Source: Tetradesmus obliquus
Lineage: Eukaryota; Chlorophyta; Chlorophyceae; Sphaeropleales; Scenedesmaceae
Assembly: GCA_030272155.1 (NCBI GenBank)
Contig: CP126194.1
Location: 4,703,501 to 4,767,500, forward strand
DNA: 64,000 nucleotides
Direction: 5' to 3'
The stretch's first letter is position 1, and each line of letters opens with the position of its first letter. Below the pieces are notes generated by a model. The model made no database searches and was not told the origin of the DNA. It saw nothing but the letters and a program-made list of their open reading frames with translations. Position numbers and translations under genes: made by a program. Below are positions 8,046-63,587 of this stretch, one piece after another.

Positions 8046-8805
8046 TGCCCCTAGTAGGGGCCTGTACTCAGCTGTAGCGCAGGTTGACAGGGGTGCCTCA
8101 ACCAACAATGCCGTTCATTCGCTTTTGTGGTCTGCTGTTGTTACACAAAGTCTGTGTAACAGAGTGTGGGCATGTAAGACAGGGCTACGCCTCTGCCGCA
8201 TCCTCATTGCCAGTATACACGGTGTACAGAATGTGGGGAACACCCCGGGCACAGCAGTGGCGCTGATCCGCACGCTGCCACGTAATATCATACTTGCCAT
8301 ATCAAAGCCAAATTAAGTGATATAACGATTGGGAGTCTTGGCACTTCTGGTTGCGTACTAGTATGGTAATCTGTGATCAGTGAATGCAGTGTGCCTCTTC
8401 GTGCCGCCCTCAGGGCCCGGAACGTTCGAGTGGTTGCGCTTGCAGACGGCCAGGCGGAGCGCGCCTCAAGCCACCTAGCGGTCGTGCACTGTCGCATTCG
8501 CAGGAGTGACGAAAGGAAGTTTGACGTCAAGTCTAGAGGGAACCTTGGGGTCACGCCGCGTTCCTGTGCATGCACCCATATATGTCACTGCTTGCCCATG
8601 CATGTGTAACTATCTGATTAAGCAGCGTATTAAATATGCACCACAGCCTTAGACAGGCGTCAGCAGAACAAACCTGACCGCTGAACCTAAAGAAACCCTT
8701 CCCATCGACTTGCGCGGTACTTGCTTACTTGTGCAGGCATCAACGCAATACCGCACTTCAAGTACTAAAAAACTGAGGCGAATGATGATCAGAGAGATGA
8801 GCAGT

Positions 8806-16871: not shown

Positions 16872-17420
16872 GGCACCAGCCTGTGGTGTCTGAGGCACTC
16901 AGTGCTGGTGTTCCCGTGCTTCTCTATGTTGCTGGGTGTGCTGCCATGCAGGTTGGGGTGCCATGCAGGTTGGGGTGCCAGGGCAGCTGCAGCACGCACC
17001 CAGCTATCAGCTATTAATATGGCGCCAGCCTGTGGTGTCTGAGGCACTCAGTGCTGGTGTTCCCGTGTCGCTTTATGTTGCTGGGTGTGCTGCCATGCAG
17101 GTTACGTGCCAGGGCAGCTGCAGCACGCACCCAGCTATCAGCTATGATTATGGCACCAGCCTGTGGTGTCTGTGGCACTCAGTGCTGGTGTTCCCGTGTC
17201 TCTCTATGTTGCTGGGTGTGCTGCCATGCAGGTTAGGGTGGCAGGGCAGCTGCAGCACGCACCCAGCTATCAACTATGATTGTGGCGCCAGCCTGTGGTG
17301 TCTGAGGCACTCAGTGCTGGTGTTCCCGTGTCTCTCTATGTTGCTGGGTGTGCTGCCATGCAGGCTGGGCTGCCGGCGGCCTGGGCGCCGAGGCAGCTGC
17401 AGCACGCCCAGCTATCAAGC
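16872..17420 (+). repeat. 131-bp satellite, about 4 tandem copies
   Basis: Units begin at 16872, 17021, 17152 and 17284 with GGC(A/G)CCAGCCTGTGGTGTCTG. Spacings are 149, 131 and 132 bp. The first unit is longer because a GGTTGGGGTGCCATGCA piece is duplicated. Each unit ends with a CAGCTGCAGCACGC and CCCAGCTATCA block. Copies are more than 90% alike by eye. Confidence 0.9.
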
Positions 17421-46800: not shown

Positions 46801-48914
46801 ATAAATGTGTCATTGCTGAAACATGGCGTGTGACGTTGCCGTCGTGCAGGTGTACATTTTTGGAGGCATGACCATTGATGGGCACCTGTTGAATGACCTG
46901 TGGGCGCTGGACCTTGACAGTATGACGTGGAGCCACTGCACATGCTACGGCCTGGCGCCATCAGCACGCAAAGGTGCGCACAACACTAAGCATGAGGCCC
47001 GCAGCAGCTGAGCGGCAGCAACCGTCCAGATTGTTGTATTTTACACATGTGCACACCTATGTGTTCAATGCACAGCGACAGTTCCCCCCGCCTGTATAAT
47101 TCACAGCCTATATAGTGCGGCAACTGGGTGGTGCCTGTGCTGCTGGTGGCTGTGCCAGCTGTTGCATGGACCACCTGCTGCCTGCCTATACCGTGCACAT
47201 CTTGCAGGTGCCTCGCTGTGTGCCATGGAGGATGGCCGGCGGCTGTACCTGGTGGGCGGGCATGACGGCCGCAGGCTGTTAAATGACTGTTGTTATCTGG
47301 AAGTGGAGCGGCTGATGTGGAGCCAGATCACCCCCAGCGGGCCGGCGCCAGAGCCGCGGGAGCAGCACGTGGCAGCAGTGCTGGGCAAGTACCTGTTCAT
47401 CACCGGCGGCTGCAGCGAGGCGCCTGCTGCTGCTGCTGCTGGCGCCGGCAGCTTGGCGGCGCCTGGTGGGGATGCGGCGGGCGCTGCCGGCGGGATGGTT
47501 GGCAAGCGGCTGACGGATACGTATGTGCTGGATATGTACACGGGGCCGGCCTGGGAGCAGCTGGATGACGGGGCTTGGGGCAACAACCTTGTGTGGCTGA
47601 AGCAGGTGGGTGGCTGGGGTGGCATTATGTCATATGCATAGCATAGTATGCAGCTGTGGCGGTGGCTGTTGCCCGGTGCACGGACAGGGGCCGGCTAGGG
47701 ATGTGTGCCAGGGCATCTGCCCAAGCTGCTGTCCACACCGGCTCACATGCACATCATGTCTGCTGGCATCTGTATGTCTGACCCGCACATGCATGCTCAC
47801 CTGCACGCTGCTGCATGTGCTGCTGCTGCGGCTGCTGCGGCTGCTGCTGCTGCTGCTGCTGCTGCTTACATGCACGTGCCGGCGGCCCTTGAACACGCAG
47901 ATGTCTGTGAACAGTGTGATGCACGGCAGCCGGCTGTTCACGCTGCGGCCCAACCTGCACGAGCAGCTGGAGGAGCTGATGGTGATGGAGCTGACGCTGC
48001 CCGAGGACATCGAGCGCATGAAGACAGCCAAGCGCCGCGACAAGGAGCAGGTGCGAGACAGTGCGGCCCTCAGGGGTGGAGTCTAAGCATGGTTGTGCCA
48101 GGGCGACAGGGTGGGTGTTAGCAGTGGCGAGCCACAGGGCGGCAGCTGAATGCACAGCTAGCCATAGTGGCCGCTGTGGCATGACAGGCAATTTATGCTA
48201 CACAAACGAGGAGATTTGTGCCAGACCGTTGCATGCACAGCTGGATCCTGTGTGTTTCTTGCCTGCTGTGCCTGCTGCTCCATACGTGCTGCTGTGCCTG
48301 CTGTTGTGACGTGCTGCAGGTGAACGTGCTGGAGCTGCTGAGTGACGCAGCTGCCACCAGCAGCAGCCTGGAGGTCAGCTGGCGGCCGCCCAGCAAGAAC
48401 AGCGAGCGCATCACAGGCTACAAGCTCATGGTGGCAACCAGCACAGGTGGGGGGCGCGGCGCGAGCTGCGCAGGCGGTGCAGCTGCAGTGGCATGTATGC
48501 GATAACATGAGCGTACAGTTGCGTTCGGCACAGTGCTGCAGCTGCTGAACAGCGAGTGCTCAACTGATGGAGGTACACAGCTGTGAGCCCGCTTGCAAGC
48601 GGCATTCCTGTGAATGATCCTGCGTTGGCAGCACCGTGCTCCTGTAGTGACTGGAGTAGCAGGTGCTCGATGTCATGTCTGCGGGCTGACGTACAAAGTG
48701 CTAGAAGCCGCCCAGTACTTGAGCTGATTAGCCGCTCATGGTGTGCTTGTGCTGCTGTTCAGGTGTTGCGCGGGAAGTGTTTCAGGGCAAGGGTTTGAGC
48801 CACACAGTCACGGGCTTGAAGCCAGCTGCAGAGTATGTGTTCTGCGTGAAGGCTACATATGATGATGGCTCCTTTGTGTGGAGTGAATCCAAGGCATTCA
48901 CCACCAAGTCATAG
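43895..48914 (+). CDS. Coiled-coil, kelch-repeat and fibronectin-III protein (13 exons)
   Basis: Exons 43895-43941, 44171-44339, 44581-44799, 45065-45150, 45398-45549, 45799-45889, 46134-46215, 46459-46605, 46850-46973, 47208-47605, 47901-48050, 48320-48446 and 48763-48914 join in phase throughout to 647 residues. The N-terminus MPPKKDKKDEKKEEPE is typical of axonemal and basal-body proteins. Residues about 20-190 form heptad-rich coiled coil. Kelch blades follow (about 240-480): QLVLHGGQ, KLMVFGGS, VYIFGGMTIDGHLLNDLW, LYLVGGHDGRRLLNDCCYL and LFITGGCSE. A fibronectin-III domain closes it (about 556-647: LEVSWRPP...ITGYKL, EYVFCVKA). Kelch plus FN3 recalls host-cell-factor proteins, but the coiled coil points to a cytoskeletal or flagellar scaffold. 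That role is inference. Confidence 0.85.
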
Positions 48915-49779: not shown

Positions 49780-50662
49780 TCATCCCTTCCGCCTGTTCTT
49801 GCCGCTGCCACCACCACCACCGCCACCGCCCCCGCGGCCTTTGCTGGGTGCTGCCGCTGCTACTGACTGGCTGCCTAGCTGCTCTGCTGTAGCCATGAGC
49901 TCCTCATCTGGCAGCAGGTGAAGCAGCAAAGGCAGCAGGTGGTTGCAGGCATGGACATTGTTAGGTGAGCAGACGACAGCAAGCAGCAGGTCGGTCATAT
50001 TTGTGCATGCTGTGCAGGGACAACAGGTACCATGGCATTGGATACAGCAGGAGCTAATGCTCTTGTTATGCAGCTGAGCTGCCACGTGCAGTGGGTTGCA
50101 GTGAGTTACTGTAGAACCAGGTGTTATTCATACATAAGGGCAGCATTGCGTCAGTCAAGATTCTTGTATTGCAACAATCACTGCTTTGCGGAGGTGTTGT
50201 TGACAAGCAAGCAAGCCTCGTCTCAACTGCTGCTGCCAACACAGCTGGTGTGCTGCCGCAGCAATCCACACCTGTTGGGTGCTCTCCACGCGCCATCAGC
50301 ACAAAGAACAAGCTGTTCAGCTTCTCCATCTTCTTTACATCTATTTGTTGGTCTGTCTTGTACTTGAGGCACTGCAGGGCAGCAAAAGGCTGATCAGCAA
50401 CGCGCTGCCGCTGCTGCAGTTGCTTGCTGCTGTTGTGATGCTAGTGCGTTGTGTCCGGCCTCCGTCAGCACCATTGATTGACATGTATCGTAATTACATC
50501 GCATATGCAGCATTGCAGGCTCACCACAACATCGTCTGTGACCTTCAGCACTAGCTTGCCCTCCTTATGTTTGTACTTGATCACGTATCTAGTGCGCAGC
50601 GGCTGCTGTGCGACCAATTCTTGTGCTTGCTGGTAAAAAGTATTGAAGTCCTCGACATACAT
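49780..50662 (-). CDS. SRP9: Signal recognition particle 9 kDa subunit (SRP9)
   Basis: Exons 50662-50525, 50371-50272 and 49907-49780 join in phase to 121 residues. The family core is clear: YVEDFNTFYQQAQELVA, then RTRYVIKYKHKEGKLVLKVT, then CLKYKTDQQIDVKKMEKLNS and LFFVLM. SRP9 pairs with SRP14 to bind the Alu domain of SRP RNA and pauses translation while the ribosome-nascent chain docks at the ER. Animal SRP9 is about 86 residues; this one has an extra tail (about 80-121) ending in a nine-glycine run and the basic GKNRRKG, perhaps RNA-contacting. The ATG at 50662 is the first in frame after the ORF context changes. A transposon end lies only about 200 bp upstream, so the promoter may have been rebuilt or disturbed. 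Confidence 0.9.
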
Positions 50663-50857
50663 GCCGCTGCTTGATCTGTGTTCGGGCTGGGCACCGGCAA
50701 GAAACAACAGCACTAGCGGGGTGGTGGCTGGTTTGGGCAAGCAAGACAGTTAACATCAGCCGTGCATAGGGAACAACCAGAGTGTAAAAGTTTCGACCGG
50801 GCTGTTCGAAAGTGGTTGCAACTGCCAGAACCCCAAACAACTGACTGACACAACTAC

Positions 50858-51004
50858 CATGGTAACGGCTTCCCACAGGTGGACCAGTAGGTATGGTACC
50901 CTACCACCTGTGGGAAGCCGTTACCATGTGACTTAGCTGGTACTACCATCAGCTAAGTCACATGGTAACGGCTTCCCACAGGTGGTAGGGTACCATACCT
51001 ACTG
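50858..51004. repeat. Nested palindrome of transposon-end fragments
   Basis: Three end fragments alternate in orientation. A 25-bp piece (50858-50882) and a 55-bp piece (50885-50939) lie back to back. After a 10-bp spacer (50940-50949) comes the outer 55 bp of the true left repeat (50950-51004). The two 55-bp arms are perfect inverted copies. ACTACCAT occurs at 50853-50860 and again at 50942-50949, directly against the left repeat. Confidence 0.95.
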
Positions 51005-51037
51005 TTGGTAGAGTATTATACCAAACTTTGGTACGGC
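50950..51037 (+). repeat. Left terminal inverted repeat, 88 bp
   Basis: Reads CAGCTAAGTCACATGG inward to GTACGGC. By eye it is an exact reverse complement of 62630-62717, and identity stops sharply at 51037. Confidence 0.97.
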
Positions 51038-51691
51038 CGTCAGGGTCGTGCTGGTTGTTAGTATAATGCACAGAGCATTATATTAGCAACATCTGCATTG
51101 CGCAGAGCCAGCTGAGCTGAGGAATACAAACTGCTGGCTAGTGGGTCCGCTTCCACTTGCTGTCCATTGGCTCTGAATGCAAGAAATGCAGAAGAAACAA
51201 CTTTTGAATGATCAAAATCATTTATAACTACCTTCAGAGTCCGTCAACATCGCAACAGCTCCACATGCACGGCCATTGCGTCATGGCTGGCATGGTGACT
51301 GTCAACGCAGCATTGGGTGCAGGCCCAGGCAGGCCTGCTGCTACAAGCTTGTGGCCGGCTGTCACATGTCTGGTGATCATCTGGAGCATCTGGAATATGC
51401 AACTGTAAACATTATCTCAAATCATAGTAACAACCGTTGTGTGTTCTTGATGGTGTCTCACTAGACCCTGCGGTGACACCTCCTCCCCCAGCAGCACTGC
51501 TGAGTATGTTCGGTGCCTACCAAACCCGTTCGATGTTGTAATCAGAAGGAGATTCACTAATTCCCTGGCATGGGTCGACCTGTACTCTTGCTTTTACCGA
51601 ACAGTTGTTTCTGCTCCCCGATGATGGATCAACGCATGCAGTCATAGCTGCCACGAAGAAGGCCATAGATCCTGTAGAAACCATCACGTCA

Positions 51692-54419
51692 ATGAGTTCG
51701 ACGAGTACGGCAGCTGGTAGCGTCAGCTCAGACGACCAGACAACAACCAACAAGGTAATACGCGCCCAATTCTCGTCAGCACGGCTGCCGTCACTCTGCT
51801 TACAGATCAAGTAACCTTAGGTTCAAACGTGTTCATGTGCAGCCACTGGGCAAGCTGAACAAGCGGGCTGCCGAAGCGATCGCCGAGCAGCAGCAGGGGC
51901 AGGGGCAGCAGAGGAAGAAGCAGCGCAGCTCACAACAGCGTGGGCGACAGCATCAGAACACGACACAGGCAGCTGAAGACGGAAAACAGGCAGAACATGA
52001 TGCGCTTGGGCTGCCGCAGCAGCTTCTGAAGCTGCAGCGGCAGATGCAGCAGCAGCTGCTGAAGCTGCAGCGGCAGATGCCCAGCTCTCGGCAGTGTGGC
52101 CAAGAGCATCAGAACCAGACACATGAGTCTGAGAAAGAGGAAGAGGAGGTACTAGATGGCCTGGAGACAGTGCTGCAGCAACTGCTGCAGCTGCGGGAGC
52201 TGCAGCAGCAGCTACAGGGGCAGCAGCTGCAGCAGCAGCAGGATACGGCCAATGCCACTGCCAAAGCCGCCAGAGAGGTCAACCAAGCCAGATCCGAGCG
52301 CGCCTGCTGGAAGCTGTGCAGAAGTATGCTGTACAGCTGTTGGACAAGGGCGACATCATCCTGCTAGTGCTCCTCCCCTACCACAACAGTGCTAGTCTGC
52401 GCACGTTCACTCAAGGCTTGACGCGAGAGCAGCTGAGCGCCATCTTGGAGGTGCTGCTGCGTCACCCAACCGGCAGCCTTGGGTGGGCCGAGAAGCAGGT
52501 GCAAGCACTGCTGCGCAAATTAGGGGCAGGTGAGGTGATCCGGCTGAAGGCTTGGTGATATCTAGCAGCTGCCAGTGCGGGGGTGAGGGCTTGTAGTTTT
52601 TGCCTCCGCTATGTCAAACTGAGGCCGCACTCAACATATTGTCATCTTGCGGTGTACATGCCACAGGCGTGTAGCAAGCGGCTACAGCTTATGCGCACAT
52701 TGCATGTGACTTGCTGCCTGCCCTGCCGTGTGCTTGTGCTGCAGGTGCCGCCCCCGGTGGCGGCACGCAGGGCATAGCACAACAGCAGCAACGACAGTAC
52801 AGCCAGCAACAGCTCTACAAGGTGGAATAACCCTCCAAAAAGAAGGTGAATAAAGAGGAGTGCAGTGAGGAATGGAGTGACACTGAGACAGCATCAGAGG
52901 AGGAGGCAGGGTCTGCTGGTGCAGCGCAGCGCAGGGGCAGCAGGCGCAGCAGGAGCCACGAGCGTGGCACTGGCAGGGGCAGCAAGCGCAACAGGAGCCG
53001 CGAGCGTAGCAGCGGCAGGGGCGGCAGCAAGCGCAGCAGAAGCCGCGAGCGTAGCAGCGGCAGGGGCAGCAAGCGCAGCAGAAGCCGCAAGCGTGGTAGC
53101 GGCAGGGGCAGCAGGCGCAGCAGGAGCCGCGAGCGTGGTAGCGGCAGGGGCAGCAGGCGCAGCAGGAGCCGCGAGCATGGCAGCGGCAGCAAGCAGCATC
53201 GTGCAGCTGCAGAGGCAGGTGTGTATGGAGAGCCAGAGCGCCAGCGTCGGCGTGTAGCCAATGCAGGTGGTGCAACACGCGCAGCTGCTGCCGCTGCTGC
53301 AGCTGATGCCGCTGATGACGCTGCTGCAGCTGATGACTGGGCGGCACGCAGCAAACTCAAGCGGCTGCACCGCACAGATGCATGGCGCCAGGCGCAAGCG
53401 TCTCAGGCTGCAGGGCATGCTGATGCACTAGGTGTCAGTGCTGCTGCACCTTCTTGTGCAGCAGCTGCCGGGGAAGCAGCACCAGCAGCAGCGGCAGCAG
53501 CAGCAGCAGCAACTGAACAGGAGCGAGCGAGGCGTGAGGCAACAGCCTTACCATGTGTACTGAAAGCGCTTTTGGAGGGTAGACTTGAAGCGCAGGCTGT
53601 TCAGCCCAGCTCCGCTTGCACTGTGTTTCACATCTGCAACGCTGCTGCTTTGGCTTACACAGGTAAGTAGTCACAGATGGTTTCGGGAACTTGGATGATG
53701 TGTGACGGAGATGCGGTGGTTGGGCTTGGCGGGGCAGATCAGTGGTCAAGGCTGATAACGCACATGAGACTTTGATGCTCAGCTGTGGCATCACTCCCCG
53801 CGGTTCACACATTGCAACATGGTCACACTCATCAACGCATGCACTGGTGCAGGTGTCAAATGCAGCAGCATGACCTCGTCATGACGCTTCTTTGCTTGAT
53901 TAGTCAAACGATTATTTTTAACACTCACTATTGCTGCCACTGCTACTGCACTGCCGCCAGCTGCTGAAGCTGCAGGGACCTTGGATCATGTGGACCTGAA
54001 GAGCGCGCTGCGCATGGCAACGGGCTGGCCGCTGCAACGCAAGACGAAGGAGCGTTCGTGGTGTGACGCTGCTCAACAGCTGTTGCAAGCCCACCATAGG
54101 CGCTGCAAGGTAAGTGGAAGGCTCCACTGTATATGTGGAGAACGTAAGGTGGTGCATGTGGTGTGCTATCAGGTTGGCATTGTGTCTGCATGGCGCATGT
54201 TGTGTCCTGCCTCAACTCAGCTGCGGCCGCTTGAGTGCGGTGCTGTGCGTTGGAAATGCCAGCAACGCCACCCCTGTAGATTGTTTGGCATGACTGACTT
54301 GACGTATCCTGTGTTGTCGCTCTTCTGCATAACTTGCTGTCTGTTGGTATGCCGCTTGCTTACTCGGCAAGGAGCAGCAGCAGCAGCAAGGGGGCCCACA
54401 GCAGCTGCAGGGGCGGCAA

Positions 54420-54454
<35 letters not shown>

Positions 54455-54709
54455 GCAGCAAGGGGGCCCACAGCAGCCGCAGGGTCGGCAACAACAGCAG
54501 CAGCAGCAGCAGCAGCAGCGGCAGGTAGAGGTATGTGCCGAGGTACGTAGCCAGGGCGCCTACGGCAACGATGCTGCAACCACGGCTGCTGCTGAGGAAC
54601 GGCGCTACGCAAAACCATCAGCAACAGCCCCAGCAGCAACAACACACAGGGAGGCAGAAGCGGGCCAGCAGCGGCGCGCCCCTACCAAGCAGCGGCAGCA
54701 GCAACGGCA

Positions 54710-54741
<32 letters not shown>

Positions 54742-55331
54742 AATCGGTCGGTGAAGCAGCTGTGCAACGGCAGCGCTTGCCGCGCAAAGCGGCTGCTGGT
54801 GTCGCCAGCGCAACACAAGCAGTGCTCGGCAACAGCCAGGAACCGACAGCAGCAGCAGACGACGCCAGGGCAGTTGCAGCTGCGCAGCGTGCTGCACTGC
54901 CAGCTGATGTCCCAGCTCCTGCCTCGAACGCGCAGCACAACATGGTGCAGAAGCTGAAGACAGGTGCCCTGGTGAGTGCCGTCGAGCCGGCCTTTGGTAT
55001 GAAGTCATGCTAGTGCTTGCATGCAAGCAGTAGAAGTCGTAGTCCATGATTGTCACCATAGTCCATATAGTGCCCGCATGCCGCCACAACACCATTCCTG
55101 AAAGTCACTGGATGTGGATTGCAGGGCATTGACGTCAAAGGCCTGGTGGCAGAGCTCGCGGGTGTAGAGGCGCGCTTGGCGGCAGGCGCGGACAGCGTTG
55201 ACGCTGTTGAGGAGGATGTTGCGTATGCTGCAAAGCTGACAGCGGCTTTCACGAAGCCGCATGCTCGTGTGGAGGCAGCTTTGGCAAAGGCGCGCAGCGC
55301 TGTGAACGCAACCAAATTCCCAGCTTGCTAG
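51692..55331 (+). CDS. Gln-rich protein with Arg/Ser (RS) repeats, transposon partner gene, apparently broken
   Basis: Proposed exons 51692-51754, 51843 to about 52530 (frame break inside), 52745-53662, 53976-54109, 54372-54971 and 55125-55331, with matching phases at nearly every junction. The parts in order: a Ser/Thr-rich start; a Gln/basic coiled region with KLNKRAAEAIAEQQQ; a hydrophobic-helical stretch (LLEAVQKYAVQLLDKGDIIL); about seven RS-type units such as KRSRSRERSSGRG; an Ala-rich region; GWPLQRKTKERSW; polyQ; and a conserved-looking end (GIDVKGLVAELAGVEARLAA). I do not recognise the family. RS and polyQ tracts suggest a nuclear protein meeting splicing factors or chromatin. Two lesions are apparent: a frame change near 52280-52310 (or a 44-nt intron), and an in-frame TAA at 52828-52830 with coding-like sequence after it in the same frame. 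Confidence 0.6.
52930..53200 (+). repeat. Coding minisatellite (about 36-45 bp unit) for RS repeats
   Basis: Six to seven imperfect units of GGCAGCAAGCGCAGCAGAAG-like sequence encode alternating Gly-Ser-Lys/Arg-Arg-Ser-Arg blocks. Units differ by small in-frame length changes, so the repeat has changed copy number while keeping the frame. Confidence 0.85.
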
Positions 55332-57834
55332 AGTCTGGCCTTCACAGCTGTCCTGCCTGTGCGGTGGAATGTAGCGCTGTGATGTTGGTGGTACGAGTGC
55401 TTTGGCCTGGTTTGCATGTCTGGAAGTGCACATGAGTGTGGTGCACCGGTTGTTGGTGACGTCATTTAACATGTTACACTCGAGTAGCTTTATGCGCCGG
55501 CAATAGCAGCTCATGCTGCGTTTGTGGTGGCTGTAGGTCACACAGCGTGGTCAAGCTCAGCACTAGGGTGGTGTCAGTCTGCAGAAGCGCGGCTTTGGCT
55601 CTTGCTTTGGCGGTAGTTATTGTTTCAGGGTGTGTGCGACTGCAACTATTGGCGCTATGCATATGTTTGGGTGCAGGCCGTGGGGTTTACAAGCAGATCA
55701 TTGATGACGGGTTTGGTTGATTTGCAGCAGAGTTAATGGCACACAAAACCAGCAGTGCACGCATGATCAGGCCTAGCCCTGCCATGGCGTGCAATTGTGG
55801 CAGCTTGCACCATGTGCACAACAGCCACAACGTGGTGCTCAGCACTGTTGACGCCGTGTAACACTGAACAAATGGCAATCTGAGGATGATGATCATGCAG
55901 TGCATCGGGCATGCAGCCAGGCAGGCAGCACTTGCAGCCACATCGAGTTCTGGTAAGAATGTAGGCAGCGGACCCTTGACCCTTACGCCTGCATACTCAC
56001 TCACGCAAAGCAAATGTGGATAGTTTCTTGTTGAACATGTGCCTGCAACGCTTGTGTAAGCGCCAGAAAGCAGGTGTTGCCTGCCACCTCATGTTTCGCC
56101 AGCAATTCTCAAGATGATGTGACACATCTCGCCCAGCCCGCCCTGATGTGACTTGTTGGTTGCCGCGGTACGCAGCCAGAGAGATACATGACTGGACCCA
56201 ACAGATCGCGCAGTTTGGAACCGCAGCACTGTATCTTTGCTGCCACTGTCAACAGCTGTACACATCAATACACCTGCTGCCAAATGGCATCCTGTCTGCT
56301 GGTTTTCTGCAGCTAGCTGGTAGGTATGCAACATGATTGCTCCCCTGCAAGCATCAAGTCGGTGCGGTACTTCCAGAATGCAGCAGTCATCCAATGAAGA
56401 GTCGTAAATTGTGTCAGTAGAAACTGTCCACGCACTGGATCGTTGACAATGCTTGATGCATTCTTGCGTTGCACTGGGTATCATGCTGCGCAGCTCATCC
56501 CAGCAGCATTGTCACCTGGCACATCCACAGCAACACTTCAAGCTGCATGGTGCACACACTTACCAGCGCATGGCACGCGCTGCAGCGGCTGGGCATGGCG
56601 ACTGCTGCACTGCAGGGACTAGCATTACTTGAAGGATGGAAAGCATCGTCTGGGACAGAGCGTATGCGATGTGCAATCGAGTTTCAACAGCGATTGCAAT
56701 AAGGACGGTTGTTCTGCTGTGGCTGCAGCGCATCCTGCAAGAGTTGCGCAGTTTCAATCAGCAATGTGCGGCATTCCTGCACTGTCGCTTCAACTTACCT
56801 GCAGGCACATGCAGCAGCGGCTAATAGATGCAATGCGGTGCTGCAGTGGCTACAGCAGTATCTTCACAACAGGCAGCAGAACTTCTGCTGGCAGCAACGT
56901 CACCATGATATCATCAGCTGTTGTGCCAAGCAGCAGATGCGCGCATAACTATGAGTTTTACTCAGCAGTGTGGCCATTGCATTCTACTGTGCTCACTCTC
57001 CTTTTCTGGTCTCTGACCTTGTGTTCAACCTGTTGTGGCTCATACCATCTAATACCATCTAAGATGGTGCCCAGACCCACATGTAACTATCTTCTCTCAT
57101 TGCAGCACCCCAGTCCAAGGTTGATGCAGTAGCCGCGACAACCCGGTAACAGCCGCGCCCACCGCTATCTCCAAACCCGTGGCTCTGTGTATGCTGCAAG
57201 TGCGCAGACGACTGTCTGCCTGTCCGCTGTGCACACGCCCTTTCCGCTGCCGAATGAATCACTGGCTGCATGTGTCATTGTATGTATTTGGTCTAGTTGC
57301 GCAGTGTGTGATGAAGCATGGCAAGGTTCTACTCTGGTGCATTGTACATGTAGTGCATTGCTGATAGGCTCCTTGATTGTTTAGGTTTACACAGAACAAG
57401 TTTTACGTGTGCACGTCATGGCATATTCATCAGCCAAACAACTTGCAAGCAAGTGGCGAATCAGCTGCCAGCTCACAGTGAGCTGCACGCATGCGCTAGA
57501 TATGCCGAGATCTGGTGCCCTCAACAATGGCTGCAGTATCCGCACAACTTGTGCGATGTGCAGAAACGCCAACAGCACAATGAATCCCTCATGGCCCCAA
57601 CAGACACAAGCAAAGCTTAGCACACAGCAAAGCACACAGTTTGACACCATGATGGTACAGCAGTTGGTGCCATCGCCTTGGCACATGGGGCAGCACAATG
57701 CGGAATACTCAGCAGTTGCTGTAGCACCATATAAAAACAAGCACAGATGGGGCTGCCTTCGACACATTGTCAACAATATCAATACACGGCACGCACGCGC
57801 CAGCACAACTTTGCGCCGCGTTTGACGGTGACCA
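55332..57834. other. Transposon interior between the two convergent genes
   Basis: 2.5 kb with no exon I can support. ORFs occur at 56629-57132 (plus) and 56013-55687 (minus), but they lack good splice context or recognisable motifs. I looked here for a TET/JBP-type oxygenase, which accompanies KDZ elements in some fungi, and saw no such motif. Confidence 0.4.
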
Positions 57835-60800
57835 TCAAGTCAACCACGCAAAGCACTCGGTGGCCTGTTCGTGCCACAGCTGGTGCTTTTCTGCGTTGCG
57901 GCGCAGCAACACAGCAAGAGCTCCATGCACGGCACTCTGCTGCAGGCCGTCTTTCACTGCTGCAGTACAGCCAGGCGGCCTATCCTGCGCCACACTCCCC
58001 GCCACACTAGCCTGCAGCTCCTCTGCTGCCTGCTGCTGCGCCTGGCTGGCCTCCATGCACACACGGCTCACGTGCAGGAAGTACTGCTTGGTGCGCTCCC
58101 GCTCGAAGCGCTGCATCACCAGCTCCTCAATTGTTCTTGCCTCCTGCACCATGCACAACTCCATGTGAGATCGCTGTGCTCATCTCAGATCATGCTTATC
58201 AGCATGAAGGCACCACACGCAGCGTTGCAATGCTTGTAGCAAGGCACACAATGCACTAGCACCCAGTACTGTTTCCCAGCAACAAAGCACAAGGCAGCAT
58301 GAGCTATAGCAAGACGCTGCCCTTGCTGCAAACTACTATTCTCATGCTACTCTGTCGGCTCACCTCTGCACACGCGTCCCTGAAGCGCTCGGCCAGCATC
58401 GCTGCAACAGCAGCGCCGCTGCCACCAGACCCGCACCGCCATGGGTACTCGCCTTTGAACAGCTTGGTTACCTCTGCTTCTGTCCAAGCTGCCGGAAGCT
58501 GCTCGACTGCGCTGCTGCTGGGCGCGTCCTCCGTCTGCCAGCTGTGCATCACGCCCACTAGCTGCCGCACACGCTTGCGCGTGCTTTGCGCCTGCTTCTT
58601 CTGCGAGCGGGTGATGCTGCTTGCTGCCCCCTGCTGCTGCCTCGCGTACGTCAGAACAGAGAGAGCAGACACAAGCTTCTCTATCTCCGCCTGCAAGCTC
58701 TGCAGCTGCTCATCCCTCAGAGCAGCTAAGCCTGCCCTGTACTCATCGCTGCTGCGGTCCAGTGGCTCTGTGATGTTCAGCTTGGTCATCAGGGCACCCA
58801 GCTTCTGCTGCAGCTTCTGCTGGCGTGTTGTATCTCGGCCACGTGCATGCAGCGTGCGGCCCTCGCTACCTGGCAGGGCCACTGAGAAAGCAGTGGCGTT
58901 GCTGTGCAGGTGCTGCAGCGCTCTGAGCTGCTTCTCATCGCGCACGTAGTCCACCTGCGCATGTTGAGCAAGCGACATGATGTCACGCAGATGAGACAGA
59001 TGAGAACCTGCCGACTGCACACAGCAGGCCGACATACAAGACAGAGCGCTACATGCATGAAGGCTGGCAGGTGGCGGCAGCCCCTGAGCAGCAGCATGCA
59101 ATGAGCAGGCAACCATGCACGGCAAACATGAAGAGGCAACAACTGGGTATTGGGTACTCACCAGCAGCTTAAGGCGCGCAGCGTCATCGTCCAGCGCTGC
59201 AGGTGCTGCTGGTGTGCTGCTGCAGCTGCAGGCATCCACCGCTGCGTGCATGAGCTGCAGCTCAGTGAAGCCCTGCTTGCGCGCCAACTTCACAAGGTCC
59301 TTGTAGTGGTTGCGGCACTCCTCTACAGACAGCAACATCAAGCAGTTTGCATCATGATGAGCTCACGAAGCACAAGACGGCAAAAGGCAAGCAAGGAAGA
59401 CACGCAAGTGCGCTGCTATGTAATAACCACCAGTTCATACACTGTGGGCAGGACCCACATTTCACATGTCGCATGCCGATGTTCACATGTCGCTGTTCAC
59501 GCAAAGCGCGAGGAGCAGCATGCTGCTCACCAAGCTTGCGCAGGTTGCTCTTGTGCTGCTGCACCATGAAGGGCACAAACCCTGCCATGCGCGATGATGC
59601 CACGAAGCCGAGGGCGTCGTCGATGCAGTCCAGGTAGTTTGGCATGGCCGTATACCTGGTGACCGATGCAAGGGGCTTGAGCTGCGCCCACAGCTGCTCG
59701 CACATCTCGCCAACACGGCGGCATGCACCTACAGCAGCGCCAAAGGGCAATGGTGCAGGCAACGTTGCAACACAGCAAACAGGTGAAACAAGTGTGTATT
59801 GTACAGAGCACGACTACAGCAACCAGATGCACAGATGCAGCCGGCAGTCACCATCATTGGGCGCCACATGCCAGGCATCGAGCGCGCAGCTGCAACATGA
59901 ACAGCTGTGCAGATGCACCCGCATGCGCGTGTATGCATGCAGAGCCAGCGCTTGTAGCACCTCACCAGGCAGGTACAGGCCGGAGTAGCGCAGGCAGCAG
60001 CGCGCGCCATGCCCCCTGGTATGCCACCATGGCAGGCGAATGTGGCGCGGCGCATCTTTTTCAGACAGGTGCAGCAGCCGGTGGCGGGAGTAGCTGCAGC
60101 CTGTGTCCAGGTACATGACGTCCACGCGCGCGTCCAGCAGCAGCATCTGCAGCGCTAAGTCATAGTACACAAAGCGCTCAGGCGCCGGCATGGCCATAAA
60201 CATCCCAAGCAGTGGCTGCCCGTGGCTGCACACGCCGCCAGCCAGGCCACACACGTCGCTGATGCCGCTGAACAGCGAGGACTCCCTGGCGCAGAGCAGG
60301 CGCGGGTGGCACTCCCCGCCCAGCTCAATGCTGATGTCATCTTCGTCGCGCTCAGCACGCTGGCGCTGCGTTGCTGACAGCTCACCAGACTCCTTCATCA
60401 GCCACAACTGCCTGTGCGCCTCATCAAGGAAGCGGCCCAAAACAGGTGCCGTGCCGCTGTAACCGCCACTCCTGCCTGCTGACGTGTAGTGGTTGAGCTT
60501 CACCACAGCGTCGAAGGCCGCAGCGGTCAGGATGGGGCGCTCGCCTGGACTCCATAGAGGAATGAACTCGTCAGCAGGAGCTGATGGCAGCATGCAAATC
60601 AGATGGCAGAGCAGGACAATGGGGTTGGAGTGTGTTGCTGCAGCAGTTTTGTGCTGCAGGCTGCTGCACACGTGATTGGCTCAGCAAGCATAGAACAAGT
60701 GACACCATTGGACTCAGCTGCTGCATGCAGTTTCTGATGACCAGCTCACCTGGAAGCAGCCCCGCCGCCAGAACTGTTTGCGCACTCAGCCCGCAGACAG

Positions 60801-62133
60801 CCGCTGCAGCAGCTGCGGTACCTGTAGGGATGCAACATAGCAGACAACTCATGCGCTGAAGCTGTGCAACACACACCTGCAACTTTGCAAACTGTGCTGC
60901 AGCAACAGCATGGTGGCACGTACTGCAAAATGATTACAACATCTCAATGGACATGTTGCTGGCATGTGAACCATTGCAGTACCGCTCACCGGCTGCAAAC
61001 AGGTGCGCGGCTGAGTGACCAGGTACCAGCGTGTCTGCAGCCAGACAGCATCTGCAGAGGCACGAAGAAGCGTCCTTAGCAATTCAGAGCAAACAAGGGT
61101 TATTGCTTGCGCAACATAAGAGAGTGTCAGCTGCTGCTGGCAGTGGCTGCTTGTTACCTGCAGGGCCTGGCGTGCCAGCGCATGCTGGGCACAGCGCTGC
61201 AGGGCCCAGGCCAGCAAGCTCTGCTCGCACCAGCGCATGCGGGTCGTGTTTGTACTCAGTCGCACGGCTGTACTCAACCCATGCCCACTGCAGGTCCCTG
61301 CAGATGACAGGCAGCATGTTTGTCAGCTCCTCAGCATGGCAGTGCATGCCGATGTCTTCAGCCTGTTGGGTACTTACTTTGCGGTGATGGATGGCACCGG
61401 GTCCTGACCAGCTGGCTGCGCTGCTGAGACAGCAGCTGCTGCAGCAGCATTGATCACTGCGCAGGCAGCATTGCTGGCGTCAGCATAGGCGTGCATGCTG
61501 AGGCCAGCCCCAAGGAGCAGCTCCCTGTACAGAGTCAAAAGCTGCTTGTCAAACCAGTGCGTGGGCGACACTGGGGTGTTCCCCCAGCAACCAATATGTG
61601 CAGGGCAGACCTCCCACGTCAGCCCACGTGGCATCACAACCCCGACATGCCACAGTCGGCACTGCCATCCAGAAGCTTGTGCCGAGAGCATGGTAGGCTA
61701 CAGATCTGCTGCTGCCAACTGTGATGCAGGCGTCAGCAGACAGCACACTGCAGCACCAGTGACGCTGCAGCGCTGTTGCAATCCGACCCTCCATCAGCTG
61801 CATGCTGCTCATCAGCTGTTTCAGCTGCTCATCAACCTCCTGGTATGCCTCATACTGCTGCAGGCTGCTGATGTTGGCAGGCCTGCGATCCTGCCAGCTG
61901 CGGTTGAGCTGCTGCACACGCTGGCACTGCTCACTGCCGCCATCGCCCAGCACCTCCACCCCAAGCAGCTCTTCCAGGTCCACATCCAGAGTGTCACTGT
62001 CCTGCCTGTGCCGCCTGGGCTTTGTTCTACTAAAGGAATCAGGTGGCACAGGCTGAACTAGCCTTTTCCTAGTCTGTTTCTGATTCTCAGCTGCGTAGCG
62101 GCGCAGCTGTTCGGTCCGAGAGATGAAGTTCAT
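57835..62133 (-). CDS. KDZ-superfamily transposase, intron-containing, with a frameshift
   Basis: Exons: 62133-61378 (frame broken near 61620), 61297-61158, an unresolved part, about 60580-59966, 59728-59531, 59322-59162, 58954-58364 and 58143-57835. Phases fit from 60580 to the stop. KDZ features in order: a Cys pair (VACRGCDATW); NTPVSPTHWFDKQLL; CPAC; GVCSHGQPLLGMFMAMPAPE (usually C-R-H-G); ERFVYYDLALQMLL; the YLDTGC acid motif; WWHTRGHGARCCLRYSGLYL (usually H-x-x-G-H-x-x-x-C-x-x-x-Y); GEMCEQLWAQL, the usual G-E-x-x-E-x-x-W; and LHARGRDTTRQQKLQQKLGA in the C-terminal helical domain. It should be a DDE-type cut-and-paste transposase. The start at 62133 is the first ATG in frame. The first catalytic Asp falls in the unresolved part (61157-60581). 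Confidence 0.82.
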
Positions 62134-62629
62134 GATAAAAGGGCTTAACAGCTTCAAAGAGTCAAGATCATCATAGCAGCAAGCGCGAAGTCTGCATCGC
62201 CACTAAACGTTCACGGTCGTGCTGTAGGTTGACGCAGCTTAGAGCCGGCGGTGGATAATACAAAGTGTGCAGTATGAAAGGCCTGTGAATCCTGTGAATG
62301 GTTTGCTGAGCGGCATCATCCCCAACGGGCGTTCAAATTGGTATCATGTAACTAACACTGCTTGCCAGGTAATGCCCCGCAGCAGCCCGCAGTGTGGATG
62401 GATGGATTGCAATGTAACCTTCAAGAAATGTCTATGTCAATATATATCCACCACCTGTCACTCCAACGAGCACAGCTAGCACTGAATGGGGGCAGTGCTG
62501 GGCAGTGCCTGCACTGCTGGGACGGTGCTGTGGTGACCCAGCCATGACGCTGCCTGCGGCTTAGAAGAGGATACCCAACCTGAATGTTTGATATTTAACG
62601 TTGAAAGGCACGAGTGCGAGTGCTTGGCT

Positions 62630-62717
62630 GCCGTACCAAAGTTTGGTATAATACTCTACCAACAGTAGGTATGGTACCCTACCACCTGTGGGAAGCCGTT
62701 ACCATGTGACTTAGCTG
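62630..62717 (-). repeat. Right terminal inverted repeat, 88 bp
   Basis: Exact inverted copy of 50950-51037, ending CCATGTGACTTAGCTG. The next bases are CGGGTACTACAGG. Confidence 0.97.
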
Positions 62718-63587
62718 CGGGTACTACAGGCATGATGGCCTGTAATGGCATACTATGGGCCAGCACTGGACCTGGGGAGGCTGGTGCTCACAACGCCTTC
62801 ATCAACTACGCAGCAGCAGACACTCAAGAATGCAGCGGTTTCGGTCAGCGCGACTATCGGACAGGAGTCACCAGCGCAGTCCTCCGTGTCAAGTGCACTG
62901 TGACAGCAGTCCTTGCAGTTGGCCCAGCATGCAGCATGCTGGTGACTGTCCCCATTTCGGAGTGAAGGGAGAGGAGGTCACAGCAGGGCAAACGATCCAG
63001 GTGTTGGTGGTGACTATGTGACTGTGCAATCAGTGCACTTGCAGGTCGCTGTGATGGCATGTCATGATTGGTTGAAGTTTGGGTGTGCACAAGCGTCACT
63101 GCTGGTATCCCATGAATGCTGCTTTATGGTGCTGTTTAAGCTACTGTCAAGGTGTGTTGTGTTCAAGATCGTCCAAGCTTGGATGCTTAAGCATCAGCCC
63201 CCCACCTACACTGGGCTGCACAGCGTGCCTGCGTATCTGGGTATCCAGCGCATTTTGAGGGATCAAAACTTTAATATGTGTGTCTGAGCATGCTGCAAGT
63301 ATTCAGGGTGCGGGATCAAAACTGGCCGGTACAAATGTTTGTACCGCCCGCCCACTTTCGCGCCAAGCACGTGCTGGCTGGCTCAAAGCACCGGATGTAC
63401 ATTGCACGCATTGTCGCGTACGTCTTGGCCCATTTTATTATATGCGCGCTGCCTGACTGCAGCGTCTGCTGATTTGTCATTTAATCGACACCGACAGCAA
63501 CGGCAAATGCCGCTGCCGTAGCAAACGCAGCTGATTCAAGTTGTTTCTACAGTAGTACAATCGTCTTTACAAGCTGGCGGCGTGCAA
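62718..63587. other. Right flank of the transposon and promoter of the edge gene
   Basis: A 77-codon ORF (62732-62965) starts 15 bp outside the right repeat. It reads through sequence such as GAHNAFINYAAADTQECSG but has no recognisable motif, so I do not call it. A TTATTATATG element at 63434-63443 lies about 150 bp upstream of the ATG at 63588 and may be its TATA box. Confidence 0.35.

Follow-up and report, generated by a model that had tools for sequence, protein, structure and literature searches.

Evidence for a KDZ-Superfamily DNA Transposon with Long Terminal Inverted Repeats in the Green Alga Tetradesmus obliquus

A segment bounded by inverted repeats in the genome of Tetradesmus obliquus (the window, a stretch of 64,000 nucleotides at positions 4,703,501 to 4,767,500 of contig CP126194.1) raises the question of whether it is a DNA transposon, to which superfamily it belongs and how its copies may have moved. 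We assign it with high confidence to the class II transposons, as an 11.8-kb member of the KDZ (Kyakuja-Dileera-Zisupton) superfamily whose 7-bp target duplications and CA..TG ends place it nearest to Kyakuja. A preliminary description of the locus had proposed a DNA transposon with a KDZ transposase and defined ends in a green alga, and this proposal is supported by the terminal inverted repeats (TIRs) and by a match to the Pfam KDZ profile. Coordinates of the individual features are collected in Table 1.

Ends and Copies of the Element

The perfect 88-bp inverted repeats described at both ends were confirmed exactly, with positions 50950-51037 and 62717-62630 being 100% identical over 88 bp. 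A search of the genome (104.66 Mb in 17 contigs) with this repeat returned at least 12 matches. Eight of the 12 among those listed cover the full 88 bp at 98-100% and correspond to both ends of the window copy, of C10:4815734-4827700 and of C6:5512246-5524058 (C6a), together with one end each of C6:5819833 (C6b) and C6:3457770 (C6c). Two others are fragments of 55 and 25 bp directly left of the window copy, and the remaining two are diverged ends, C6:6080303 at 77% and C9:4386518 at 75%, the former belonging to a 1.24-kb short relative whose target duplication matches at 6 of 7 positions. Occurrence of the repeat elsewhere without this interior had been named as evidence against the proposed element; the outcome was mostly favourable, as the 98-100% matches sit only at family ends, but the diverged C9 end came without any interior. 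This lone TIR (C9:4386518-4386605, L016) was accompanied by no other part of the element in the 9.9 kb examined around it.

Searches of the genome brought up further copies of the window element (family 1) as well as a diverged second family (family 2), whose transposase protein is 63% identical to that of family 1. Family 1 comprises three two-ended copies, one copy without its right end and one end fragment. Outside gaps, the window copy is 98.75% identical to C10 and 98.96% identical to C6a, and the four long copies of the family are mutually 98.4-99.0% identical over at least 10.7 kb. Family 2 was found at nine loci with KDZ exons, eight of which were retrieved for analysis. Both ends were mapped in 10 copies, three from family 1 and seven from family 2. 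A family-2 TIR pair lying 2.27 kb apart at C13:4120856-4123123 is probably a short non-autonomous derivative. Scanning the genome with the Pfam KDZ profile gave 38 exon matches, against none in 14 control genomes, so the superfamily is well represented here. Five KDZ-domain matches on C3 (7390909, 7415140, 7439356, 7463267 and 7489727) share one strand and an equal score at a spacing of about 24-26 kb; they may represent giant KDZ elements arrayed in tandem or else a segmental duplication in tandem.

Nineteen of the 20 ends of the two-ended copies begin CAGCTAAG, the exception being the right end of C6d, in which the last base differs, and the elements read CAG..CTG. Exact 7-bp target duplications flank six of the 10 two-ended copies, both in family 1 (C10, CGCAGGC; C6a, ACCCCCC) and in family 2 (C4a, GTCGCAG; C4b, TTGCCAG; C4c, CCTTAAC; C13, CAGCTGC). 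The duplication of C7 measures 6 bp, and none was found at the ends of C6d, C16 and the window copy. TIRs combined with a target duplication, as described for Zisupton, are present in these families, with the duplication absent from the window copy itself. The 7-bp duplication and CA..TG ends of Kyakuja recur in these six copies, and the 8-bp duplication of Zisupton in none of the 10.

That the segment is an old relic or a segmental duplication rather than a mobile element is very improbable. The window copy, frameshifted and without a clean target duplication, would suit such an origin, but the termini of the copies coincide to within a few base pairs, and the copies stand at unrelated sites with different 7-bp duplications. 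Moreover, three family-2 copies of about 12.3 kb (C4a, C4b and C4c; C4:1307944-1320241, C4:1363320-1375618 and C4:1474514-1486812) have separate target duplications, and pairwise comparison shows differences of 1, 2 and 3 nt between them (99.98-99.99% identical). Homology running past the TIRs between copies was not seen.

Around the window copy, GTACTAC occurs on both sides, in each case 3 bp away from the end and not adjacent to it, and the flanks (50300-50884 and 62718-63400) match only themselves, the TIR remnant apart. To account for the missing duplication, we weighed nested insertion, inversion and abortive excision, none of which fits the whole flank. The word ACTACCAT lies on both sides of the rearranged TIR fragment at 50858-50939. 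Further out in the window, an open frame at 47012-47641 has kelch-like repeats by eye and is probably a host gene beside the element, and 16959-17364 holds about three 132-bp units repeated in tandem (94%). Elsewhere in the genome, a frame on contig C3 aligns with the photosystem II D1 protease of PDB 1fc6/1fc7, the Scenedesmus (Tetradesmus) obliquus enzyme, over chain residues 298-388 and agrees with it at every position from residue 300 (89 residues); two frames of another S41-family locus matched less well.

Table 1. Features of the KDZ element and its surroundings (positions in the window)
Feature	Position	Strand	Evidence
KDZ (Kyakuja-like) DNA transposon, window copy, 11,768 bp	50950..62717	.	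TIRs at both ends and two-ended relatives
Rearranged TIR remnant: TIR bases 12-36, 2 nt, then bases 55-1 inverted	50858..50939	.	Beside left end
Left TIR, 88 bp, CAGCTAAGTCACATGG...	50950..51037	+	Sequence comparison, genome search
Right TIR, 88 bp, perfect reverse complement of left TIR	62630..62717	-	
Second gene, conserved exon, 34% aa identity to family 2; 20-nt deletion inside in C6a	52288..52529	+	Conservation in family 2
42-bp tandem repeats encoding an Arg/Ser-rich stretch, open frame; repeat number differs between copies in steps of 42 bp	52926..53189	+	
Second gene, conserved exon, 28% aa identity to family 2	53961..54113	+	Conservation in family 2
Second gene, conserved exon, 59% aa identity to family 2	54760..54975	+	Conservation in family 2
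Last transposase exon with stop codon	57835..58143	-	Conserved block 58149-57838, acceptor check; stop read from window sequence
Transposase exon (RGRDTTRQQK)	58364..58954	-	Two-family alignment, frame check
Transposase exon	59162..59322	-	Two-family alignment, frame check
Transposase catalytic exon (GEMCEQLW)	59531..59728	-	Pfam KDZ 9e-6, frame alone, just under cut-off; two-family alignment, frame check
Transposase catalytic exon (FDAVVK, YLDTGC, GHGARCCLRY)	59966..60580	-	Pfam KDZ 1.2e-7, frame alone; two-family alignment, frame check
Candidate transposase exon 3, weakly supported; 4-nt difference between copies just before it	60990..61034	-	Two-family alignment
Transposase exon 2 (LCPACAGTP)	61158..61297	-	Two-family alignment, frame check
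Transposase exon 1, start ATG, CxC3-like cysteine cluster; frameshifted in window copy	61378..62133	-	Spliced two-family alignment, frame check, CxC3 match below cut-off
CCCACGT-CAG-CCCACGT, 10-bp insertion (7-bp duplication + CAG), window copy only; frameshifts exon 1	61613..61629	+	Copy comparison, frame check

The Transposase and Its Convergent Partner Gene

A chain of KDZ motifs had been read between the repeats, and all four motifs are indeed present in minus-strand frames: YLDTGC and GHGARCCLRY in frame 59814-60680, GEMCEQLW in frame 59352-59813 and RGRDTTRQQK in frame 58304-59362. We take FDAVVK, YLDTGC and GEMCEQLW to hold catalytic acidic residues. A gene model was obtained by intron-tolerant alignment of the near-identical C10 copy with the diverged family 2, yielding seven well-supported exons and one weak one. 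The short exons between 61158 and 60580 are provisional, as two alignments gave different chains, with the C10 and C6a runs of one alignment in agreement. The spliced alignments also contained spurious parts, which were discarded: all that they placed after the last exon, two junctions inside the C10 run and several in the C6a run. In C10 the stop codon of the last exon was not found, and the stop in Table 1 is that of the window copy.

The spliced transposase had been expected to match KDZ profiles, in both their CxC and transposase parts, over most of its length. With the last exon left out, the C10 protein matched Pfam KDZ (PF18758) at 8.4e-21 (75.1 bits, cut-off 26.6), in keeping with that expectation, but coverage of the profile began at position 51 and ran to 214 of 217, and the CxC3 match (PF18804) stayed below the 26.6-bit cut-off (4.7e-4, 20.4 bits). 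The family-2 C7 protein, likewise spliced without its last exon, matched KDZ at 1.7e-25 over profile positions 4-214 and CxC3 at 3.1e-5 (24.2 bits, again below the cut-off). A better match to a different superfamily, which would have spoken against the assignment, did not appear among hits to an E-value of 1: no other transposase model was present, and the remaining match besides KDZ and CxC3 was CCG in the family-2 protein (0.067). Between the families, 910 aligned codons from seven exons gave a dN of 0.265 against a dS of 0.858 at 63% identity, which fits purifying selection on the transposase.

hAT elements often begin with CAG and generate 8-bp duplications. A hAT-like transposon would account for the CAG..CTG ends seen here, and PMC12730594 reports hAT families with 7-bp duplications in rust fungi; an identity of this kind is nevertheless extremely improbable given the KDZ matches at 8.4e-21 and 1.7e-25 of the spliced transposases, which hit no hAT model up to an E-value of 1.

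The two-gene convergent layout put forward in the preliminary description is supported by three plus-strand exons that are conserved in family 2. Among the family-1 copies, length differences between 52.0 and 54.8 kb (those of at least 3 nt listed) are mostly multiples of three. Two differences break this pattern: C10 lacks 14 nt at 54251, a position that falls in none of the three exons, and the 20-nt deletion in C6a would disrupt the first conserved exon. By eye, the frames of the second gene contain Gln-rich and Arg/Ser-rich stretches. No Pfam domain scored above cut-off in the frames and segments scanned, the best matches below it being UBA_6 (0.0039, one window segment) and DEK_C (0.054, a family-2 segment). 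The product is perhaps an accessory nucleic-acid-binding protein, which is a guess. An alignment of the second gene within family 2 was discarded because it traces nucleotide similarity.

Frameshifted Copies and Movement in Trans

The complete gene set attributed to the window copy did not hold up, because a 10-bp insertion shifts the frame of transposase exon 1; the remaining transposase exons tested are open. The copy thus cannot make its own full transposase and could move only in trans. The insertion is missing from each of the four other copies extending that far (C10, C6a, C6b and C6c). Damage of other kinds is found in its relatives: C6a has lost 77 bp from the catalytic exon, C6b breaks off at window position 61727 and shows an 8-bp duplication within a different exon, and C6c is an end fragment. 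In C10, the seven exons with a valid check are all open. C6c also contains a 62-bp insertion with a 7-bp duplication, AGTGTCA (L014, about 8287-8341; C6:3457xxx), perhaps a tiny non-autonomous element.

From its sequence, CCCACGT-CAG-CCCACGT is perhaps an excision footprint, having the form expected from a 7-bp duplication and CAG..CTG ends. The chances are about even, however, that the 10 bp instead arose as an ordinary tandem duplication with filler or as an assembly error. Short duplications do occur elsewhere, at 8 bp in C6b and C10 and as a perfect 10-bp one at 57042 in the window copy. Family 2 has both a 7+4 form (CATCATA-TGTA-CATCATA) and a 6+3 form (GTGTTG-ACA-GTGTTG), whose fillers TGTA and ACA are not element ends, which lowers the weight of the footprint reading. 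Furthermore, the 7+3 form with CAG was seen once only, and no 7-bp duplication with CAG or CTG in between was present among 21 indels of 5-18 nt in six copies of family 2. Against an ordinary duplication stands the structure itself, which combines the duplication length of this family with its first three bases and includes a filler that plain slippage would make superfluous. The perfect tandem duplication at 57042-57061 (ATACCATCTA) is specific to the window copy, being absent from C10, C6a and C6b, and was not counted as a footprint.

In family 2, C4a, C4b and C4c have in common single-base deletions that affect exon 1 and the catalytic exon and recur in C6d, while the C7 and C13 transposases are open in the seven exons examined (the last exon is not among them). 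Near-identical copies at different sites with shared transposase frameshifts point to a supply of transposase in trans, and recent movement in trans is probably the simplest reading of the C4 sequences.

These observations suggest a cut-and-paste scheme in which the KDZ transposase, made from the spliced minus-strand gene, would bind the long TIRs, cut the element out and insert it at a staggered 7-bp cut, with excision leaving a putative footprint. A further-reaching scenario is tentative and somewhat unlikely to be right: a Kyakuja-like lineage would combine 7-bp duplications, TIRs that are both long and perfect, and a conserved partner gene in convergent orientation, its 12-kb copies with broken transposases would have jumped very recently in trans, and excision would leave the 7-bp duplication plus three terminal bases.

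To our knowledge, few studies have dealt with the chemistry of KDZ transposition. Available in this genome are two related families that have defined ends, a recurrent 7-bp duplication and a possible excision footprint, and in which copies open in the exons examined stand beside near-identical frameshifted ones. They therefore make a reasonable system for asking whether KDZ elements move by cut-and-paste, whether they move in trans and what role the conserved second gene plays.

Comparison with Known KDZ Elements

Full-length KDZ elements had been called poorly documented in algae, which is only partly right. Among the matches listed from the open-licence literature, none linked Tetradesmus or Scenedesmus with KDZ, Kyakuja or Zisupton, but KDZ elements have been reported from Chlamydomonas (PMC8226300, PMC10828217) and from Ectocarpus (PMC12477816).

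In PMC12730594, Zisupton is given 8-bp target duplications, and the fungal Kyakuja elements Kyakuja-1_LB and Kyakuja-2_LB of Laccaria are described with 7-bp duplications, CA..TG ends, no TIRs and a TET/JBP gene. The T. obliquus elements share with Laccaria Kyakuja the KDZ transposase, the duplication length and the CA..TG ends. They differ in their perfect 88-bp TIRs, and no TET/JBP model was matched in the frames and segments scanned, which are part of the element.

Closer in host are the Zisupton and Kyakuja elements carried by Chlamydomonas species (PMC8226300). According to PMC10828217, Kyakuja-3_cRei was caught as a de novo insertion in C. reinhardtii with an 8-bp duplication and imperfect TIRs. 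It is thus a green-algal KDZ element that has TIRs and was seen to move, and by this description it is set apart from ours through its duplication length and the imperfection of its repeats. Because Kyakuja-3_cRei does have TIRs, their absence is doubtful as a defining criterion of Kyakuja. With fungal 7-bp Kyakuja elements described as lacking TIRs on one side and the 8-bp Kyakuja-3_cRei on the other, the place of the T. obliquus elements within KDZ is uncertain, and they may be called Kyakuja-like by duplication length and ends. The Pfam scans gave a single KDZ model for the whole superfamily.

Size and mobility bring in further comparisons. A 31.7-kb KDZ element has moved in C. reinhardtii, as reported in PMC12477816, which also describes eight KDZ families in the brown alga Ectocarpus. 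The giant KDZ elements among them often have pseudogenised transposases and are thought to be mobile in trans. They resemble the T. obliquus elements in their length, broken transposases and suggested movement in trans, and differ in their host, in reaching up to 30.3 kb and in their nested insertions. KDZ1-3 of Cryptococcus neoformans (PMC12810828) are mobile elements of 9-11 kb with 139-241-bp TIRs and a transposase with KDZ and CxC domains. They are similar to ours in approximate size, long TIRs and the KDZ transposase, whereas their duplications are 8 bp (KDZ1) or 4-8 bp (KDZ2 and KDZ3) instead of 7 bp, and they carry CxC1 where we find a weak match to CxC3. KDZ elements were thus already known in algae, and the window element is a well-defined further member of the superfamily.
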